Below, piece after piece: positions 4,634 to 28,466 of a stretch of DNA of 30,562 bases. The translations under genes were made by a program, and so were the position numbers. Position 1 is the stretch's first letter, and each line of letters begins with the position of its first letter. Source of the stretch: a virus; IMG/VR virus record IMGVR_UViG_3300031834_000024, positions 1 to 30,562 of that record; one strand, written 5' to 3'. Below the pieces are notes generated by a model. It worked only from the letters and a program-made list of their open reading frames with translations, was not told where the DNA came from and made no database searches.

Positions 4634-4663
4634 GTGTCATTTTTTTTAAAAATCACTTATACT
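4634..4663 (+). promoter_or_regulatory. Probable sigma-A-type promoter for the structured leader
   Basis: GTGTCA at 4634-4639 (4 of 6 to TTGACA) and TATACT at 4658-4663 (5 of 6 to TATAAT) are separated by 18 nt. Transcription would begin near 4670, exactly where the folded RNA begins. Confidence 0.55.
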
Positions 4664-4669
4664 AATAAA

Positions 4670-4861
4670 TAATCAGAGGATATAATTTTCTCTGTTTACA
4701 CAGAATCTAAACGCCTTGGAACGTGAGATTAGCAATAGATTACTAATTTAAAAAGAATATTTATTCTATTGTAAAAAACAAGTTTCTCCAAGGCTACTTG
4801 CTGTGTAGGCAATAGAATATTATATAACAAAAACCTCTGAATAACATCGGAGGTTTTTGTG
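4670..4861 (+). ncRNA. Structured, riboswitch-like leader RNA (no known class recognised)
   Basis: The stretch between 4588 and 4859 has no ORF but many nested helices. They are: ACACAG (4698-4703) with CTGTGT (4801-4806); GCCTTGGA (4713-4720) with TCCAAGGC (4787-4794); ATTAG (4728-4732) with CTAAT (4743-4747); and a local hairpin, CAGAG (4674-4678) with CTCTG (4690-4694). TTCTATTG (4764-4771) is fully complementary to CAATAGAA (4810-4817), which would form a pseudoknot across the other helices. It can also pair 7 bp with CAATAGA at 4733-4739. CAGAGG at 4674-4679 can pair with CCTCTG at 4834-4839, closing the whole domain. That same CCTC otherwise masks the ribosome binding site of the next gene. 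I do not recognise a known riboswitch or ribozyme motif. Confidence 0.6.
4827..4860 (+). promoter_or_regulatory. Hairpin covering SD and GTG start; terminator or translation switch
   Basis: ACAAAAACCTC (4827-4837) is perfectly complementary to GAGGTTTTTGT (4850-4860). The right arm holds the Shine-Dalgarno GGAGG (4849-4853) and the first two bases of the GTG start (4859). The A-tract, short GC stem and U-run also look like an intrinsic terminator. Either way it can shut off the gene at 4859. Confidence 0.65.
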
Positions 4862-5233
4862 TCTAATGAATTATTACAAAATCTAATAAATGAATTATCT
4901 AAAATGTCTTTAGAAGAAATAGCTCTTTTTTTATTAAGAGTTAATCAACCCGAAGCAGAAAAATTAATATCTAAAATCTCTATAGAAAAAAAGGACACTA
5001 AATTTTTTGGTGATTTAAACTTATTAAAACCATTTCTTACAAAAAAAGGATTAACTGGTTCATGGAGAAAATCCAATGATGGATTATTTAATCAAATAAT
5101 TTTTAAATTTGGTGGGAATATAAATTTCTATAAAAACGGGACTATTTTAATTCAAGGATCTTCCAATATAAAACCGATTCTTAAATATAAACTTGAGAAT
5201 GCATTAAAAAAATATTTTGCAACTTTTATTTAA
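4859..5233 (+). CDS. Hypothetical protein, 124 aa, possible TBP-like fold
   Basis: GTG start with GGAGG 5 nt upstream; the next in-frame ATG is 15 codons later and has no ribosome site. The N-terminus is a short helical segment. Residues about 80-120 read NQIIFKFGGNINFYKNGTIL then IQGSS. This recalls the N-terminal TBP-like substrate-binding domain of RNase HIII (pattern FYxSGKLxxQG). The likeness is weak and from memory. The stop overlaps the ATG of the primase-like gene (TAATG), so the two are translationally coupled. It may bind the template or assist the primase, which is inference. Confidence 0.55.
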   Translation: MSNELLQNLINELSKMSLEEIALFLLRVNQPEAEKLISKISIEKKDTKFFGDLNLLKPFLTKKGLTGSWRKSNDGLFNQIIFKFGGNINFYKNGTILIQGSSNIKPILKYKLENALKKYFATFI

Positions 5234-6966
5234 TGAATCAAAGATTATATTTTACAACAAATAGAAGTAAAGATATTGAAATATCTAATATACTAAAAGA
5301 TATACAAAAAGATATTTTTTTAAATTATCAATTTACTAAACAATTTGAAAATATCTTCAATATTTTAGGTTATGATCTTAATGGAGAATTTATCTATTCA
5401 ACTATAAATAGAGATATTTTATTATGGCAAACTACTATAAATAAACAATATACTACTCAAATATGGAATTATAAATTAAAACTATATGAATCAATTAATA
5501 GTGAATATAAATTATCTGAACATATAATACGACATTGTTTTCCTCTTGAAAGTAAAAAAGCTTTTCCTAAAAAATCTAATTGGATATCCTCTAAAGAAAA
5601 TAAAATAGGAGCTCATTATATAGAAAAAGACATGTGTGGTTCTTATATTAAAAATATTTCTGATATAATAATTATAGATATAGATTGTCATAAAAAAAAC
5701 ACATTACAAACATATAATGAACTTTTAATCTTATTAAAACATTTTAATGATTATTTGTATCTTGAAATATCCCATGAAGGAAGTTTTCATCTTTATATTA
5801 AATTAGATAAAAAATATTCTTATATAGAACGTAAAGAATATTTAAATAAATTAAAAAAAGAAAAAAATTTATCTTGTATTGATTTACATCTCAAAATGAG
5901 ATTTCCTTTTAGTTATCACTATGAACCATGTACAGAAGAAATAGAAATATTATCTATTCAAGATTCTATCAAAAATATAAATAAAAAATATAAAGAACAA
6001 ATTGGATTTAATTTAAATACCAAACAAAATGAAAAAATTATATCTATTACTTCTACTCTTTATGGAAGAAAGAAAAAATCTAAAATTAAACACATCACTT
6101 CAGAAGAATTTCTAGCTACAACAAATATATATATATCATATAAAAATAGACATAATCCTATGTTAGAAATCTGTAGAATTGGAAAATTTAATAATTGGAA
6201 TTATGATGAAATTCTTCATATTATTAGAACATTAGATCAAGGGAGTGATGATTTAAAAAAATGGAATGATAAAATACTTTTAAAAAATATAGAAAATATA
6301 TATAATAAAAGTACTATTTATTATCAAGAATCAATCACAACTAAACCAGAAAAATTTATATCAAATATAAATAAATTACCTCTTAATATAAAAAATGTAT
6401 TAGAAGATGAATCATTTATAAATAAAATTATTTTAAATTGTGAAAAAAAAATAACAAAACTTAATCAACAAAAATTTAAAATAATTTTATTAGAATTATT
6501 TGGAGCTATATTATATGATACTCAAAATAATAGAATAACTCTTAATAATAAAAAAAATAAGTATCTTATAGGAAAACAATTTTCAAGTTATTTTGCTAAT
6601 AAATTAAAAGAACATTACTTAGAAATACAATCATTTGATTGTTATGGAATAATTAAAGATATACTTAATAAAAGTAATTTATTTACTCAATTTAAATCAA
6701 ATACTAGAGGTTGGTATTTTAATACTTTAAATTCAGAAAATAATTTTTGTAAACAATTTGATTTATTTAATAATAAAAATCATATATTATATAATAATTA
6801 TAATACTATATGTTATTTAATGATAAACTTACTTAATTCATTCTACATATTAAATAAATTAAAATTACTTATTATACAGAATTTTTTTAATGATAAAGAT
6901 GATGAATTTTTAATTATAAAAGATAAATATCTAACAAATGGATGGAATGTAGCTGATGGATTTTGA
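5233..6966 (+). CDS. AEP-like primase (PrimPol-type), 577 aa
   Basis: Three motifs of archaeo-eukaryotic primases are visible in order. IIIIDIDCH (Asp 149 and 151) is the metal site. ISHEGSFHLYIKL (179-191) is the Ser/Gly-x-His nucleotide motif. IDLHLKMRFPFSYHYEP (216-232) matches the third Asp plus R-x-P region. Residues about 305-360 (NRHNPMLEICRIGKFNNWNY...) look like a PriCT linker domain seen after such primases. The C-terminal 200 residues are unassigned; no Walker A motif was seen, so no helicase is fused. It would prime phage DNA replication. The gene follows the riboswitch-like leader and a coupled small gene. A second primase of DnaG type is at 21778. Confidence 0.6.
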   Translation: MNQRLYFTTNRSKDIEISNILKDIQKDIFLNYQFTKQFENIFNILGYDLNGEFIYSTINRDILLWQTTINKQYTTQIWNYKLKLYESINSEYKLSEHIIRHCFPLESKKAFPKKSNWISSKENKIGAHYIEKDMCGSYIKNISDIIIIDIDCHKKNTLQTYNELLILLKHFNDYLYLEISHEGSFHLYIKLDKKYSYIERKEYLNKLKKEKNLSCIDLHLKMRFPFSYHYEPCTEEIEILSIQDSIKNINKKYKEQIGFNLNTKQNEKIISITSTLYGRKKKSKIKHITSEEFLATTNIYISYKNRHNPMLEICRIGKFNNWNYDEILHIIRTLDQGSDDLKKWNDKILLKNIENIYNKSTIYYQESITTKPEKFISNINKLPLNIKNVLEDESFINKIILNCEKKITKLNQQKFKIILLELFGAILYDTQNNRITLNNKKNKYLIGKQFSSYFANKLKEHYLEIQSFDCYGIIKDILNKSNLFTQFKSNTRGWYFNTLNSENNFCKQFDLFNNKNHILYNNYNTICYLMINLLNSFYILNKLKLLIIQNFFNDKDDEFLIIKDKYLTNGWNVADGF

Positions 6967-10833: not shown

Positions 10834-11574
10834 ATGAAAAAATATATACCATATAAGGATAATGAAAAATTCCATAGTAGTAAAAAAAGTCATTTCTTTA
10901 ATGAAGCAGTTTTTAGACCAGATAATTATGCTAAAGAATTATATAATATAATGGTTAATATTATAGAGGAATATAAAAATTCTAATTTGAAATATGATTA
11001 TCAAATATGTAAGGTATTAACTGATATTTTTTCAAAATATAATATTGTATTTATTCCAAAAGGTACTTATTATAATAATGGATATTTTTCTGGAATTAAT
11101 GAGATGGAATCTGGAGAAAAATCTTTATTAATTAGAATTCTTTGTAGTTTATCTATAGGGGATTTATTTAAAAGTGATAATTTAAAACGAGATTTTTTAA
11201 AAGATTTTAAACAATTAATATTACATGAATTAGTTCATAGGGGACAATATATATCATTTAATAGAAATAAAATACAAAATGAATTAATTCAATTTTCAAA
11301 AAATAAAATTGATTTAGCATATTATTCATTAAAACCTGAAATTATGGCTTATGCTTGTTTAATTGTTGAAGAATTAAGATTTCAAGATTTAGAAGATTCA
11401 GAAATCTTAAAATTTATTAATAATAGAGATAAGTTTAAAAGATATGAAAGTAAAACTTATGATTTATATAAAGAAATTTATGGTAAATCTAATGTATTTA
11501 CAAGATTACTTAAATATATTTATGAGTATATTAAAGGAGATTTAACTAAAAATATAATTGAAATAGGAAGTTAA
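10834..11574 (+). CDS. Tagged zincin metalloprotease-like protein 1
   Basis: The 246-aa product contains HELVH at 131-135, the HExxH zinc site with its catalytic Glu. A conserved KPEIMAYA at 167-174 supplies a candidate third ligand (Glu 169). The N-terminus MKKYIPYKDNEKF is the shared tag, also seen on NTase 2 (MKKYIPYKIEE). After it comes NEAVFRPDNY, which is conserved in the two paralogs at 12135 and 13075. Family: gluzincin-like; exact family not assigned. It is probably a head-internal enzyme delivered with DNA, or a virion-processing protease. It starts 1 nt after the preceding stop. Confidence 0.65.
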   Translation: MKKYIPYKDNEKFHSSKKSHFFNEAVFRPDNYAKELYNIMVNIIEEYKNSNLKYDYQICKVLTDIFSKYNIVFIPKGTYYNNGYFSGINEMESGEKSLLIRILCSLSIGDLFKSDNLKRDFLKDFKQLILHELVHRGQYISFNRNKIQNELIQFSKNKIDLAYYSLKPEIMAYACLIVEELRFQDLEDSEILKFINNRDKFKRYESKTYDLYKEIYGKSNVFTRLLKYIYEYIKGDLTKNIIEIGS

Positions 11575-12117: not shown

Positions 12118-12134
12118 TAATGAAAGAATTAAAA

Positions 12135-12908
12135 ATGAAAAGATATAAATCAGTATTTGACAGATTAAATGAACCTGTTAATACTTTTTATAATGGGGAA
12201 TATCATACTCCTCCCAGTAGAACAAGTGAATTTTTAGTTGAAGCTGTATATAGACCGGATAAATATGTTAATATAGTTTATAATCATCTTAAAAGTATTT
12301 TAAAAATTTATAATAAATCTTTTAAATATGGAGAATTAGTTTGTGAATTTTTAACAGATAAGTTTAAAGAATTTAATATTATATTTAATTATGAAGGAAG
12401 TTTTAATTCTGATGGAAGAAAATATGCTATAAATTCAATGGATACGGGAGTCAATTCTTTAACTATCACTATTCAGTGCAGTCCTATTATTGATCAATTA
12501 TTTTTAAGTATTGATTTACAAAAATTATTTTTACAATATTTTAAGGAACTTATAGGGCATGAGTTAATACATAGAAGTCAATCTATATCAATAAAAAACT
12601 ATACATTACAAAAATATATAAATAAATATATTAATATTGCGCAAGGAGTGGGTTATTATGCAGATAAAGCCGAACTTATGTCCTATGCCTGGCAAATAAT
12701 TGAGGAGTTGAGATTTCAAGGAGCTTATGATATGGATATTTTAGAATATATAAAAGATATTGGTAAACATCCTGGATATTCTTGTTTAATATATGAAGAA
12801 GTATACTTAAAATATTATAGAAATACTATGATAATAAATAGGTTAATAAAGTATATCTATGAATATCTAAAAGGTAATATAAATATTAATGAAATATATT
12901 TAAAATAA
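12135..12908 (+). CDS. Tagged zincin metalloprotease-like protein 2
   Basis: The open frame begins at an ATG at 12120, but the ATG at 12135 gives MKRYKSVFDRLNEP, matching the tag position in its sisters, so I prefer it. HELIH lies at 132-136 and DKAELMSYA about 35 residues later supplies the third-ligand Glu. VEAVYRPDKY near residue 38 matches zincins 1 and 3. L-N-E at 16-18 fits a gp21-type cleavage triplet. It is a paralog of 10834-11574 (similar length, motif order and ending YIYEYLKG). Confidence 0.65.
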   Translation: MKRYKSVFDRLNEPVNTFYNGEYHTPPSRTSEFLVEAVYRPDKYVNIVYNHLKSILKIYNKSFKYGELVCEFLTDKFKEFNIIFNYEGSFNSDGRKYAINSMDTGVNSLTITIQCSPIIDQLFLSIDLQKLFLQYFKELIGHELIHRSQSISIKNYTLQKYINKYINIAQGVGYYADKAELMSYAWQIIEELRFQGAYDMDILEYIKDIGKHPGYSCLIYEEVYLKYYRNTMIINRLIKYIYEYLKGNININEIYLK

Positions 12909-13074: not shown

Positions 13075-13776
13075 ATGAAAAGATATAAAAGAAAATTTAC
13101 AAATGATTTTATGGGATATACATTACCATTGATAGAAATGGTTCAGAGACCAGAAAATTATATAAATATATTAATAGAAAAGATAAAAAATTTCTATGAG
13201 AAAAATGAATTTTTAAATTTAAATGATTTAATAGTATCTATAAATTCTTATTTTATAAATGAAAAAATAGAATTTATAGAAAGAGAAAAAAGTTCAAAGT
13301 TTGATAGTGGTTTATTTTCTGCTGGATATAAACCCAAAACAGATACAATAATTTTATTTTATACTACTGATATTTCTAATGCTTTTAAAATTAAAAATAA
13401 AAAGCATGATTATACAGATTTTAAATGGTTTTTAGATGATTTTATTGATTTTATAGGACATGAAATAATTCATAGAATGCAATCTGTAAATGATAAAGTT
13501 AATAATATCAAAGCAATGTCAAATGAAAATGAAAAACTTCATTATTCTCAACCCAAAGAAATTATGGCTTATGCTTGGTTAATAGTACAAACATTTAAAA
13601 TGAATGGTAAAGATAATGATTATATTAAATTCGTTTTATCAAATAAAAGAGATGATCATAATATAAAAATAATAAACTATATACCAGCATTTAAAAAGTA
13701 TTATAATTTTTTTGATAAAGATTCTAATGTAATGAAATTACTATATAAATATATTTATCAATATATTAATAATTAA
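13075..13776 (+). CDS. Tagged zincin metalloprotease-like protein 3
   Basis: The 233-aa product begins MKRYKRKFTNDFMG. HEIIH lies at 129-133 and QPKEIMAYA about 37 residues later. IEMVQRPENY near residue 20 matches the RP(D/E)xY segment of zincins 1 and 2. It lacks an obvious hydrophobic-x-Glu triplet soon after the tag, unlike its sisters. It is the most diverged of the three. The start is one of three closely spaced ATGs in repeated AAAAAATG units; the others are out of frame or shorter. Confidence 0.65.
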   Translation: MKRYKRKFTNDFMGYTLPLIEMVQRPENYINILIEKIKNFYEKNEFLNLNDLIVSINSYFINEKIEFIEREKSSKFDSGLFSAGYKPKTDTIILFYTTDISNAFKIKNKKHDYTDFKWFLDDFIDFIGHEIIHRMQSVNDKVNNIKAMSNENEKLHYSQPKEIMAYAWLIVQTFKMNGKDNDYIKFVLSNKRDDHNIKIINYIPAFKKYYNFFDKDSNVMKLLYKYIYQYINN

Positions 13777-17863: not shown

Positions 17864-18512
17864 ATGAAAAAATATATACCATATAAAATTGAAGAATCTA
17901 AAAATATCTATCAAAAAAAATTATTAAATAGTTCTTATATTATCAAATTTAATGCATTAATTCGATTACAAGAAAAAGCATTATTTTTCAATAAAATTAG
18001 ATATAAATTTTCTGAAACATTTCAAATGCCAGAAATTATAGATATGCTTAATGATTTAGAAAAAAATAATATAATAGAAGATTATGTAATTGGAGGAACT
18101 ACAGCTCTTTTATATTATTCTACTCCTCATCTAACAGATGATATTGATGTTTTTATTAAAAAGAAACAAAAAGGAATTTTTTGATCTATATGAATTTTTA
18201 AAAAATAAATATAAGGCAAAAGAAGAGGGTGAATTTTTAATTATAAAAGGTAATCCAATACAATTTTTAGTTCCTGGAGATAAACTTACTCAAGAAGCTT
18301 TTAATTATCCTAATAATGTACAGATAAGAGGTAAAAAATTTAAGATATTTTCGTTAGAATATCTAATAGCTATTATGTTATTTTTAGGTAAATCTAAATA
18401 TAGAGAAAGATTAAGAATTATAAAAGATGAAAATAGATATAATGTGAATATATTAAATAATATTTTACATAATTATAGTTTATTAGAAAAATGGATTAAA
18501 ATAGAAATATAA
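17864..18512 (+). CDS. Tagged nucleotidyltransferase (NTase 2) split by a +1 frameshift
   Basis: The first frame (17864-18184) begins MKKYIPYKIEES, the shared tag, and has VIGGTTALLYY (Gly-Gly 77-78) and TDDIDVFI (Asp 93 and 95), a nucleotidyltransferase metal site. It stops at TGA (18182). The +1 frame continues with no gap in sense: DLYEFLKNKYKAKEEGEFLI, PIQFLVPGDKLT (third Asp region), and EYLIAIMLFLGKSKYRERL to TAA at 18512. Joined at TTT-T-GAT the product is about 215 aa with the normal family layout. The join may be programmed, a decay mutation, or a sequence error. Confidence 0.65.
18170..18184 (+). promoter_or_regulatory. Candidate programmed +1 frameshift site
   Basis: The order is AAAGGA (SD-like), 3 nt (ATT), TTT, TGA, T. 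Escherichia coli RF2 (prfB) has AGGGGG, 3 nt, CTT, TGA, C. Phe-tRNA on TTT can re-pair with TTT in +1, and the new frame then reads GAT CTA TAT. Confidence 0.5.
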
Positions 18513-19934: not shown

Positions 19935-21023
19935 ATGAAAAAAATTAAAAAATTAACTAAAAAACAAGAAGTACAATTAGAAGTCTACAAAAATAAATGG
20001 TTAGAAATTGGTCTATCGACTAAACAACCCTCTTTTGATAGAACAAAAGAAATTATTGATAATGTTTATATTCATCTATTAGAAAAACCAGTAGTTCCTG
20101 TAGTAGTATTGGATAATCCTTATGATACTTGGGTAGCAGTATGCATTTATGTGTTAGAACAAAATCAAGTTGAAAATCAAGTTGAAAATCAAGTTGAAAA
20201 TCAAGTTGAAAATCAAATTAGAAATCAAGTTGAAAAACAAGTTTGGGATCAAGTTATGAATCAAATTGGAAATCAAGTTAGAAATCAAGTTAGAAATCAA
20301 GTTGAAAATCAAGTTGAAAATCAAGTTATGAATCAAGTTATGAATCAAGTTATGAATCAAGTTTGGGATCAAAAAGAACTATTAAATTTTGTTTATTCTT
20401 ACTTAGATGGAAATTTAATATCAGGGTATTTTTCGTTCTATGATTTTTGTTTGACGGAATTAAATATAGATTTAGATATTAAATTTAAAAATAATTTCAA
20501 TGTTTATAAAGATACTTCTGAGTTATCTTTAATCTATCCTTTTGATGATATTTGTTTTATATGTTCTAAGCCAATAGAAATACATTTTAATGAAAATAAA
20601 GTTTTGCATAATTCTAATGGAGCAAGTATTAAATATAAAAATGGATTTGAATTATATCATCTTAATGGAGTAAAAGTAACAAAAGAAATTATAAAATTTA
20701 AACCAGAAAAAATTACAGTTAATATGATTCTACAAGAACAAAATGTAGAAGTACGGCGAGAGCTTTTAAGAAAATTAGGTATAGATAGATTTATTAAAAA
20801 ACTTAAAACTAAGCCAACTAATATTTCAAAAGATGGAGTATATAAACTTTACAAGATTAAAATTGGAAATGATGTTGATGCTACTTATCTTAAAATGTTA
20901 AATCCTTCATTAAAAGATACTTATCATTTTGAAGGAGTAGTCAATAGTTGTAATACAGTAGAAGAAGCACTTGCTTGGAGAGACTCAGAAGATGAATATA
21001 TTAAACCAGTGAAGTTAACATAA
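19935..21023 (+). CDS. DUF6745-family protein with expanded NQVx repeat
   Basis: The C-terminal half (about 190-362) matches DUF6745 from memory: DICFICSKPIEIHFNENKVL, LHNSNGASIKYKNGFELYHL, then RRELLRKLGIDRFI and DTYHFEGVVNS with EALAWRD. Residues 77-146 are about 17 tetrapeptides, NQVE, NQVM, NQVR or NQVW, replacing a region that in family members is an imperfect AV-W/R-D repeat. The function of the family is unknown. It is followed by a small zinc ribbon and a QGD protein; that QGD protein is often next to DUF6745 in bacteria. The unit looks like an acquired host cassette. AAGGAGAAAAATATAA precedes the start. Confidence 0.65.
   Translation: MKKIKKLTKKQEVQLEVYKNKWLEIGLSTKQPSFDRTKEIIDNVYIHLLEKPVVPVVVLDNPYDTWVAVCIYVLEQNQVENQVENQVENQVENQIRNQVEKQVWDQVMNQIGNQVRNQVRNQVENQVENQVMNQVMNQVMNQVWDQKELLNFVYSYLDGNLISGYFSFYDFCLTELNIDLDIKFKNNFNVYKDTSELSLIYPFDDICFICSKPIEIHFNENKVLHNSNGASIKYKNGFELYHLNGVKVTKEIIKFKPEKITVNMILQEQNVEVRRELLRKLGIDRFIKKLKTKPTNISKDGVYKLYKIKIGNDVDATYLKMLNPSLKDTYHFEGVVNSCNTVEEALAWRDSEDEYIKPVKLT
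20163..20372 (+). repeat. 12-bp tandem repeat (about 17.5 units) inside the DUF6745 gene
   Basis: Units of the form AATCAAGTTGAA, with ATG, AGA or TGG variants at the last codon, run in frame without interruption. Near-identical adjacent units point to recent slippage or unequal exchange. Copy number probably varies between isolates. Confidence 0.9.
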
Positions 21024-21503: not shown

Positions 21504-21785
21504 ATGGAAAACTGGAATTGTGTAGATATTATATATTCTGAAATACCAGGAACTGAAGTAACAATTAACGGAGTTGAATTAAAATTTATAAGTTTTGACA
21601 TACCTATAGAAGATATATATGAAAAAATAACTATAAATCCTGTAGATTTTTCTGGAGAGTTTAGATGTACTTCCGATAATACTAAGTTATTAAAAAAATT
21701 ATTTTTAAAGCTTCCAAGAAAATTAAAGAAAAAATTACATGGAACAAGAGATTCAAGGAGAAGAAATAAAATAAATTATGTTTGA
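21504..21785 (+). CDS. Hypothetical protein, 93 aa, basic C-terminus
   Basis: The ATG follows the preceding stop with no gap, and the end overlaps the primase start by 8 nt, so translation is coupled on both sides. The first 65 residues are beta-rich (VDIIYSEIPGTEVTINGVEL); the tail is very basic (LPRKLKKKLHGTRDSRRRNK). The tail suggests nucleic-acid contact, which would fit a primase partner. No family recognised. Confidence 0.5.
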   Translation: MENWNCVDIIYSEIPGTEVTINGVELKFISFDIPIEDIYEKITINPVDFSGEFRCTSDNTKLLKKLFLKLPRKLKKKLHGTRDSRRRNKINYV

Positions 21786-22857
21786 TAATTTCAATAAAAA
21801 TATTGATATAATTTCTGCATTAAATACTTTAAATATAAAACATCAAAATAAACCAAATTCTAAAGGATGGATTGATATTATCTGTCCTTTACATAATGAT
21901 CATTCTTTTGGTAATGCTTCTATTAATATTAATAGTGGTGTTATTTCTTGTTTTAAATGTGGTCAATCAAAAAATATATCTTCTTTATTAAAAGAAAGAA
22001 ATAGTAATTATATTTATACTCCTCAAATTTTAATACAACCAAAAATAAAAAAACAAATACAAAATTCTAGTATAAATAAAGATCTAATTTATAACTTTAT
22101 ACATAAAGAAATAGATAAACCAGAAGATTTTTATTATTTAAAACAAAGGGGATTTACAAAAGAATTTTGTAAAGAATTTAAAATTGTTAGAAGTTTTACT
22201 GATCCATATTGTGATTATTTTGCTTTTCCTATTATAGATTCTAATAAAAGCATATGTCTTACAGAGTTTAGAAAACTTATGCAAATAGAATATTTACAAA
22301 CTTATTATAATTCTTGTTCTTTATCTTATGAACAATTAAATGAAGATTTTAAACAGCATTGTAAAGATAATAATATTCATATTACCAATTATAAACTATA
22401 TAAAGGAAATGAGATAATAATAGATAAAGTATTATTTTATCTTTTAGATAAGAAAGTTAAATATGAATCAGGATCAAGAATAAAAGAAACAATTTTTAAT
22501 ATAGATAATTTAAATTATAATGAAATTTTGTGGCTTGTAGAAGGGATAGGTTCAATTCCAAAAATTTGGAATAATATTTCTAAAAATGTAACATGTACTT
22601 TTGGTTCACAAATAAGTTTGGATCAAATTATTTATTTAAAAAAATTCAAACAAGTAAATTTAGTTGTTGATCAAGATGAAGCCGGAGTAAAGATGGTAAT
22701 AAAATTGAGAGGTGAATTAAAAAAATTTTTCATAATTGATATTTTATATGAAGATACAGATGAAGAATATGTTAATGCTATTAAAAACTGTAAATTAAAA
22801 CTACAAGAGGAATTTTTAGCAAAAAGTATTTTAAAATATGGTAAAACTTTATTTTAG
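21778..22857 (+). CDS. DnaG-type primase with zinc finger and Toprim, 359 aa
   Basis: The N-terminus has a zinc site of the CHC2 type, CPLHND (Cys 36, His 39) and CFKC (Cys 58, Cys 61). The C-terminal half has Toprim motifs, ILWLVEGIGSIPK (catalytic Glu) and VNLVVDQDEAGVKM (Asp-x-Asp). It is shorter than cellular DnaG (about 580-600 aa) and lacks the helicase-binding domain. It would make RNA primers for phage replication, recognising template via the zinc site. A second, AEP-like primase lies at 5233; why both are kept is not clear. Confidence 0.8.
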   Translation: MFDNFNKNIDIISALNTLNIKHQNKPNSKGWIDIICPLHNDHSFGNASININSGVISCFKCGQSKNISSLLKERNSNYIYTPQILIQPKIKKQIQNSSINKDLIYNFIHKEIDKPEDFYYLKQRGFTKEFCKEFKIVRSFTDPYCDYFAFPIIDSNKSICLTEFRKLMQIEYLQTYYNSCSLSYEQLNEDFKQHCKDNNIHITNYKLYKGNEIIIDKVLFYLLDKKVKYESGSRIKETIFNIDNLNYNEILWLVEGIGSIPKIWNNISKNVTCTFGSQISLDQIIYLKKFKQVNLVVDQDEAGVKMVIKLRGELKKFFIIDILYEDTDEEYVNAIKNCKLKLQEEFLAKSILKYGKTLF

Positions 22858-23651: not shown

Positions 23652-23990
23652 ATGGAATCAAAAAAAATAGATACTACATTAATCTTATATTTAAAAGGAA
23701 GATTAGATGCTTATTTATCTAAAACAGTAGAAAAAGAAATTAATGAATTTATTAATATAGAAACATCCTGTAATTTTATATTTAATTTAAAAGATGTTGA
23801 ATACTTAAGTAGTTCAGGTCTTAGAATTTTTGTTTCAACAACAAGAATTCTTAAAGAAAATAAAAGAATATTAGTTCTTTGTAATATGAATAAGGCAGTT
23901 CATAATATATTTAGAATAGTTGAATTATTAGATATGTTTAATATTTTTAATACTGAAAAAGAAGCAATAGATTTTTTAAGAAAAAAATAG
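23652..23990 (+). CDS. STAS-domain anti-sigma factor antagonist (SpoIIAA/RsbV-like)
   Basis: The 112-aa length and layout are typical: LYLKGRLDAYLSKTVEKEI, FNLKDVEYLSSSGLRIFVST, then a last helix EKEAIDFL. In SpoIIAA the phosphorylated Ser is in D-S-S-G-L; here the sequence is S-S-S-G-L (53-57), so the acceptor Ser 54 is kept but the preceding Asp is Ser. Such proteins release sigma factors by binding an anti-sigma kinase. A phage copy could free or redirect a host sigma factor (sporulation or stress), or act within phage gene control. No kinase or sigma factor is visible in this window. The RBS is AAAGGATAAA. Confidence 0.8.
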   Translation: MESKKIDTTLILYLKGRLDAYLSKTVEKEINEFINIETSCNFIFNLKDVEYLSSSGLRIFVSTTRILKENKRILVLCNMNKAVHNIFRIVELLDMFNIFNTEKEAIDFLRKK

Positions 23991-26742: not shown

Positions 26743-28209
26743 TTAAATAAGTGAATCAAGTGTCATAAGTCTTACAAACTTGGAATTTACAACTTTTGTG
26801 TCCTCGATGACTGCTGAATTCCCCTCGGTTACGAAGTTAGGGTATCTTAAACTGGAATCTATCTCTGTTAATGTGCCAAAAATTATTGAACAATCCATGG
26901 CTTCTTGAGGATTTTTGTAAACAAGTAACATTTCGTTAGTTGCAACAAGTGAAGCATCTGCTGGACAAGTATAAACATCCATATCAGAAAGTGTACCTGA
27001 TTGATATACGCCATTTTTAACATCACCCATAACATCTTTCCAAAGATCATGGTTTTTCATATATTCAGTTGCTTTAGAACCAGCAACAATCTTATTGATA
27101 CCACCTCTTTTGATGTCATCATAAATTACAGCACCAACTCTTCCAATTTCTGTAAGAAGTCTTTGTGCATGAGATTTATAACTGATTTCACCAGCTGCTG
27201 CAAAGTCTGTATCAAAAGTAGCAACTGCATTACTTAAAGCTACGCGCCTTGCTTGAGCTACTGATCTATAGTCTTTTGCTCTTGCATGTTCTTGACCAAC
27301 AGCCATAGCCATATAGTCTTTAGCATCTCCAAGACCAGTAGTTTCAAACATAATTTGTGTCATATCTGAAATTCTATATCCAAGAGGCATAGGACGTGCA
27401 TTAAAACGAGTTTTAACAAGTTCAAGACTCATTGTACCATAATTAGTATAATTAGTTGATTGTTCTGAGTTCCAATTATATACTGCAGTAATTGCTACGC
27501 CCGCTAAAGGACCAGCACCAGCATAGAAATTTAGAGTAATAACTCCAGTTGCATAAACAACAGTATTAGTTGCTGCTGGATCAAGAAGCGTTCCAACAAG
27601 AGTACCAGAACCATTATCAACAGCTATAATAGCGCCATCTAACAAAATTTGTGTTTTAAATGGGATAAGTGGAATATAAGTCATTGCACCAGATACGAAT
27701 GTTATAGTACCAACACCAGCACCTGTTCCAACTGATCCATAAAATTCTTCACCAGAGTAATATGGTTTTAAATTTTCATAAGATCTTGTATTTGCAGTTG
27801 TTCCTCTAAGAGCTTGCTCATATGTTGCTTGAATATAGAACAGTGCATCATCTGTAGATGTAAGAGGATATTCTGTAAATATATCACCACGTTTAGAGTT
27901 AGCTGAACCTAGAAAAACTGCTTTAAGCATATGTTCTGGTTTTACTGATGTTCCAAAAGTAGTTGAATATAGATTTTCTTTAATAATCTGTTTGAGAACT
28001 TTTTCTTGATTTTCAAGCATAATGGCTGCTTTACGAATTTTAGCAGGATTAGATGCATATTTATCTAGCATTTCTTTTCCAACTAAATCTGTTTTAGACC
28101 ATTTAGATACGCAAGCTTCACCAAGTTTGGATTTAGAACTCCATTCTTTATTGATAACTTCTTGCATTTGACCTTCACTTAGTTTTTCTGTTTGTCTTCC
28201 ATGTTTCAT
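26743..28209 (-). CDS. Major capsid protein (T4 gp23-like), 488 aa
   Basis: The size is close to gp23 (521 aa) and the layout fits: a charged N-terminal region, a central HK97-type fold with DALFYIQATYEQALRGTTAN early and YGTMSLELVKTRFNARPMPL, then the C-terminal capsid segment RLLTEIGRVGAVIYDDIKRG, NKIVAGSKATEYMK and a CPADASLVATNEMLLVYK stretch. L-S-E at 10-12 may be a protease site. Insertion-like glycine-rich loops (TGAGVGTITF) lie at about 165-240. The gene has clearly higher GC and optimal codons, as expected for the most abundant protein. GAGG is 13 nt from the ATG, a long spacing. It is transcribed against the portal gene. Confidence 0.85.
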   Translation of the reverse strand: MKHGRQTEKLSEGQMQEVINKEWSSKSKLGEACVSKWSKTDLVGKEMLDKYASNPAKIRKAAIMLENQEKVLKQIIKENLYSTTFGTSVKPEHMLKAVFLGSANSKRGDIFTEYPLTSTDDALFYIQATYEQALRGTTANTRSYENLKPYYSGEEFYGSVGTGAGVGTITFVSGAMTYIPLIPFKTQILLDGAIIAVDNGSGTLVGTLLDPAATNTVVYATGVITLNFYAGAGPLAGVAITAVYNWNSEQSTNYTNYGTMSLELVKTRFNARPMPLGYRISDMTQIMFETTGLGDAKDYMAMAVGQEHARAKDYRSVAQARRVALSNAVATFDTDFAAAGEISYKSHAQRLLTEIGRVGAVIYDDIKRGGINKIVAGSKATEYMKNHDLWKDVMGDVKNGVYQSGTLSDMDVYTCPADASLVATNEMLLVYKNPQEAMDCSIIFGTLTEIDSSLRYPNFVTEGNSAVIEDTKVVNSKFVRLMTLDSLI

Positions 28210-28466
28210 AACTATTATTATACCTCAATTTGTATAAATTTTAATTTTATAAGTTTCTTCTTTTAAAAATTACTTTATAAAGTGTTCTTTAAATCATATA
28301 TAAAATTGTTTATTTTCAAACTCAAGTGGATATTTTGAATGGCTGTTATTAGCTTACTTATTTAATTTATAAATTAGCTTTTTTGCTTCCTATAATAATC
28401 TTTTTTATTATTTATTAGTAAAAAATAATTTAATAACTTCTTACACTTTTTGATAATTATAAACTA
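28210..28466 (-). promoter_or_regulatory. AT-rich leader of the capsid gene; promoter not defined
   Basis: There is no ORF in this stretch. It lies between the protease-scaffold terminator and the capsid start and should hold the capsid promoter on the minus strand. Several TATAAAT-like words occur, including a palindromic AATTTATAAATT near 28365. In sequence this AT-rich I cannot name one as the promoter. Confidence 0.35.

Follow-up and report, generated by a model that had tools for sequence, protein, structure and literature searches.

Translational riboswitches with pseudoknots, such as the preQ1 classes, combine a pseudoknotted domain with a masked Shine-Dalgarno sequence and alternative pairing. 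In bacteriophage T4, gp32 binds a leader pseudoknot together with UUAA(A) repeats, and gp43 binds a leader hairpin (PMC3014915). A 2010 review described the T4 gene 32 element as possibly the only viral pseudoknot in translational autoregulation (PMC3014915). Translation-regulating pseudoknots are thus rare in phages, and the leader described here, from a lineage of AT-rich phages that lacks close relatives in culture, would be a second and larger type beside the T4 gene 32 element and would connect RNA structure with the control of phage replication in a way that can be tested.

The leader lies in the IMG/VR record of an uncultivated phage, 30,562 bases long with a G+C content of 24% (the window, i.e., the whole stretch of DNA analysed). 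It is flanked by a gene for a 118-aa protein on one side and on the other by a gene for a 124-aa protein (GTG at 4859), which in turn abuts a 577-aa gene. The structured RNA spans 4673..4861, from helix P1/A through the start codon; all leader features are given for the + strand. The earlier observation of this leader is confirmed, on stronger evidence than first claimed: CAGAGG (4674-4679), CCTCTG (4834-4839), GGAGG (4849-4853) and GTG (4859) are all where they had been placed. Judged by sequence comparison, the leader is a real, conserved and undescribed structured RNA in which both the pseudoknot and the hairpin at the ribosome-binding site (RBS) covary.

The promoter that the initial annotation had placed before the RNA corresponds to a phage promoter box, TACTAATAAATA (4660..4671, +). 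The window and its relatives together contain 26 copies of it, 22 of them between genes, compared with just 8-14% of the sequence being intergenic, and the copies sit 5' of same-strand genes, the major capsid gene among them. The box is promoter-like across the phage (window 4660, 15807 and 28409 (-), and L060-L079), preceding capsid and portal-like genes too. Recognition by a phage-specific (late-type) sigma factor is possible and would place the primase-like operon in one class with the capsid. At 72-100% identity, the capsid gene (26743-28209, -) matches six further IMG/VR contigs. Its own leader of ~200 nt (28210-28409, -) shows partial sequence conservation across five relatives, for which RNAalifold returned no consensus structure.

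RNA 4634-4880 folds at -64.2 kcal/mol, compared with -36.4 ± 4.3 kcal/mol for dinucleotide shuffles (z -6.4). Across 608 windows of 200 nt taken from both strands of the whole stretch, the leader region ranked with the strongest at z -4.4, and others reached -5.3. Since several regions fold as strongly, folding energy alone would not settle the case; comparison with a related phage does. This relative, IMGVR_UViG_3300032397_000003 (155 kb; G006), contains a 71% DNA match to the leader (E 1e-8), located directly 5' of a 114-aa homolog of the 124-aa protein (42% identical), followed by a 621-aa primase-like homolog (~35%). The gene preceding the RNA differs between the window and G006; the constant neighbours of the RNA are thus the TBP-like and primase-like genes.

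At its 5' end the RNA forms hairpin A (4674..4694, 4674-4680/4688-4694; 7 bp), which is identical in both phages and shows no covariation, competes with P1, and is an MFE helix in G006. Two further helices, P2 (4695..4809, 4695-4703/4801-4809; 9 bp) and S1 (4713..4794, 4713-4720/4787-4794; 8 bp), are crossed by the pseudoknot PK (4763..4818, 4763-4771/4810-4818; 9 bp). PK is most likely the pseudoknot meant by the initial annotation, which gave no coordinates, and compensatory changes in the relative support it. Its stacking would contribute about -7 to -9 kcal/mol before any pseudoknot penalty. A rival to PK is hairpin P4 (4733-4739/4765-4771), which the nested fold prefers and which also shows double changes when its strand may slip. 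A conserved AU-rich segment (4740..4762), comprising UUACUAAUUUAA (4740-4751) and GAAUAUUU (4755-4762), is unpaired in the pseudoknot model; both stretches are identical in the window and G006, while the RNAs overall are ~70% identical. A possible second pseudoknot, S2 (4779..4800, CAAGU 4779-4783/ACUUG 4796-4800), is likewise identical in both phages, without covariation, and the strand 4796-4818, ACUUG-CUGUGUAGG-CAAUAGAAU, can pair unbroken with the partners of S2, P2 and PK. Hairpin C (4828..4859; 11 bp in both phages) pairs across the Shine-Dalgarno GGAGG in both phages and, in the window, also includes the first base of GTG. The claim of a hairpin masking this site is supported by compensatory changes in the relative.

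With the window as its sole source (core 4680-4827), a covariance model found the G006 leader with 49 bits (E 1.9e-9); with default cmsearch filters and 398 kb searched together G006 was missed, and it was found with less sequence and with model R2. In the resulting alignment, which is fitted to the structure, 97% of cells are paired and 10 double changes occur, compared with at most 3 for slid partners; permutation of partners within classes gave P 2e-5. Substitutions in the window/G006 alignment affect 41% of paired and 24% of unpaired columns, and paired columns changing more than unpaired ones is the pattern expected of a functional RNA. With alignments based purely on sequence, S1 was recovered whatever the parameter set and hairpin C under most of them; each showed 2 double changes, compared with averages of 0.05-0.09 in permuted-column controls.

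An all-helix search of a hand-placed structural alignment found covariation in just four helices of at least 8 pairs: P2 (4 double changes), PK (3), C (2) and S1 (2). Together they hold 11 double changes, compared with a mean of 1.6 and a maximum of 7 in the column-permuted control, in an alignment whose gaps were placed by hand and two inserted G006 bases omitted as an unaligned insertion, a weakness that spares the covariance-model search and the sequence-based alignments. Permuted columns yielded a helix with at least 3 double changes in 1.4% of trials. The comparison comprises only two sequences, the window and G006, between which P1, A and S2 are invariant. The initial annotation had proposed a covariance search and had regarded a lack of covariation in homologs as evidence against the RNA; four helices covary in G006. 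As in riboswitches, a conserved structured domain is present in the 5' leader, covarying in G006 ahead of the same gene. At the level of comparison, the fold, PK, C and the synteny can be considered established.

Several of these helices are mutually exclusive: PK with P4 and part of a lower helix D, A with P1 and part of D, and C with P1. P1, a putative RBS-opening helix (4673..4840, UCAGAGG 4673-4679/CCUCUGA 4834-4840; 7 bp), is identical in both phages, and D extends P2 (about 4680-4691 with 4814-4825) in the alternative set with P1. Two self-consistent helix sets result, A+PK+C with the site closed and D+P1 with the site open. In nested energies, which leave the pseudoknot out, the closed set comes out ahead by 7.0 kcal/mol (window) and 2.8 kcal/mol (G006). 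The mean unpaired probability of the Shine-Dalgarno sequence and start codon is 0.10 and 0.22 by default and 0.35 and 0.57 with P1 forced. These models predict a ribosome site masked by default, and with the closed state 7 kcal/mol better in the window, formation of P1 may be rare.

The initial annotation had read the two pairings of CCTCTG as the logic of a riboswitch or attenuator. The mutually exclusive pairing itself is present and conserved in both phages, and C covaries, but the opening helix P1 is invariant; switching through the CAGAGG/CCTCTG helix is plausible from these sequences. Likewise, the structured leader and the masked site hold, but nothing points to a metabolite, and a terminator scan recognised at hairpin C, in either phage, no intrinsic terminator of the kind that a transcription attenuator has in its alternative fold. 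Because C pairs across GGAGG and no intrinsic terminator was recognised, translational control is the simplest reading, and the downstream genes are probably controlled in this way.

Consistent with the view that no known class is represented, a search of Rfam (4227 families) yielded no match at the gathering cut-off in the window, and the leaders of both phages gave matches only far below the cut-offs. Known Rfam riboswitches, tRNA/tmRNA and a leader peptide were also considered, none of which was supported in both phages. The exact 16-mer AACGCCTTGGAACGTG had 24 matches in GC-rich contigs, attributed to chance. A strict gapped RNA pattern matched G006 only, and its relaxed form matched 24 further loci, all chance as judged by context and model. 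Among genome contigs, neither the RNA pattern nor the capsid alignment gave a hit; cultured phages matched neither the DNA nor either of the downstream proteins (primase-like and TBP-like); and scans of viral contigs with alignments of these two proteins returned G006 only. Seven related contigs contained no further copy of the leader, but most are fragments and one (G002) starts inside the primase-like gene, so its absence there means little. Two members were found in total, the window and G006.

The first downstream gene (4859..5233, +) encodes the 124-aa protein, whose C-terminal half resembles the N-domain of RNase H3 (TBP-like). Its top Foldseek match in the PDB is RNase H3 4py5 (prob 0.96, E 0.11), and both homologs show weak, below cut-off Pfam matches to DUF3378, the RNase HIII N-terminal domain. 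A helix, four strands and a helix are predicted for this half (pLDDT about 76-90). The TBP-like assignment is weak, and a library search found no SSB match. The invariant Tyr91 and Gly100 are spaced like Tyr43 and Gly52 of RNase H3 and, from this spacing only, may correspond to them. In RNase H3, Tyr43 and Gly52 contact DNA and RNA, and the N-domain bound an RNA/DNA hybrid but not dsRNA in EMSA (PMC4132731). Holding a primer-template hybrid as the partner of a primase would be a fitting role for a domain of this kind.

The 577-aa protein (5233..6966, +) is a probable primase of the archaeo-eukaryotic type. The designation of a primase operon gains from the motifs IIDIDCH and H-YIKL being conserved with G006, but the library search gave no match, and the LigD polymerase-domain matches are weak and derive from a structure model too poor to use (pLDDT 36.5). 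The phage also encodes a DnaG-type primase (CHC2 zinc finger/Toprim; window 21778-22857), so the primase role of the 5233-6966 gene is not certain. Elsewhere in the window, three similar genes (10834-11574, 12120-12908 and 13075-13776) carry the HExxH motifs HELVH, HELIH and HEIIH and are possible tandem metalloprotease paralogs. By eye, two overlapping frames (17864-18184 and 18138-18512) look like one frameshift-split nucleotidyltransferase-type gene, and the protein at 23652-23990 resembles STAS-domain anti-sigma factor antagonists; the protein at 19935-21023 contains a long NQVENQV-type repeat run.

On balance, we lean towards a cis-acting translational control element whose effector is most likely a phage protein, not a metabolite, a reading supported by the fixed position of the leader directly 5' of the TBP-like gene in both phages. 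The transcript would start at or just before CAGAGG and fold into a pseudoknotted domain of P2, S1, PK and perhaps S2, with the AU-rich loop exposed. By default, hairpin C, in the closed set with hairpin A and PK, would cover the Shine-Dalgarno sequence and start codon and hold down translation of both the TBP-like protein and the primase-like gene that overlaps it; in the open set, the D/P1 extension of P2 would break C. The two helix sets would interchange, the pseudoknotted one presumably being the repressed one. The effector could be the nucleic-acid-binding product of the operon or its primase; we prefer such autogenous binding of the leader because of the precedent of T4 gp32 and gp43, and the TBP-like first gene product suggests repression in the style of T4 gene 32. 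The dsRNA result for the RNase H3 N-domain argues against the TBP-like protein simply binding the leader, so we hold this part tentatively.

The TBP-like and probable primase genes fit protein-mediated autogenous control at least as well as a true riboswitch, in which a small molecule (e.g., a nucleotide) would shift the leader between PK/A/C and D/P1 and gate translation of the replication genes. The riboswitch is a doubtful reading: unpaired segments conserved inside covarying helices, the pseudoknotted fold, the mutual exclusion of P1 and C seen in each phage and the missing Rfam class agree with it, but no metabolic gene lies downstream, P1 does not vary, and searches of other phage and bacterial genomes did not find the RNA, its conservation being known from a single lineage. 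A metabolite as ligand is unsupported, and it seems improbable that the leader represents a novel class of phage RNA switch, pseudoknotted and ligand-sensing; such a switch would tie the translation of both a hybrid-binding protein and a primase, and with it the start of phage DNA replication, to a signal from host or phage.

A static 5' UTR, in which C sets a low, constant initiation and the pseudoknotted domain merely shields the mRNA from nucleases, would account for the preference for the closed state in the window and for the lack of covariation in P1. We consider it unlikely, as the loop UGA of CCUCUGA and the entire 5' UCAGAGG are exactly kept although C needs neither (hairpin A partly explains the latter), and the conservation of the AU-rich loop hints at a partner that binds there. 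The separate promoter box, the compact fold and a short T run after C would also suit a trans-acting small non-coding RNA ending at C, its position before the operon being incidental. This is very improbable given that, in both phages, C lacks a recognisable terminator, contains the Shine-Dalgarno sequence and lies at the start codon of the gene that follows.

Regarded as a cis-acting control element, the leader shares the pseudoknotted domain, masked Shine-Dalgarno sequence and alternative pairing of translational riboswitches such as the preQ1 classes, but it is larger and AU-rich and has no Rfam match, ligand or metabolic gene. With the autogenous rpsO (S15) leader it has in common a pseudoknot in a translational operator (PMC3014915), whereas sequence and gene are unrelated and the mechanism here is only proposed. 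The T4 gene 43 operator likewise places a leader hairpin close to the ribosome site of a replication enzyme gene (PMC3014915), but is a single small polymerase-bound hairpin without a pseudoknot. Compared with the T4/RB69 gene 32 operator, the fold is larger, with an RBS hairpin and alternative helices, and the product of the gene it precedes has no SSB match: this protein is TBP-like, not a T4-type ssDNA-binding protein. In common with that operator, it has a leader pseudoknot (PK, with its 3 compensatory changes), an AU-rich unpaired sequence, a phage replication gene downstream and probable translational control (PMC3014915).
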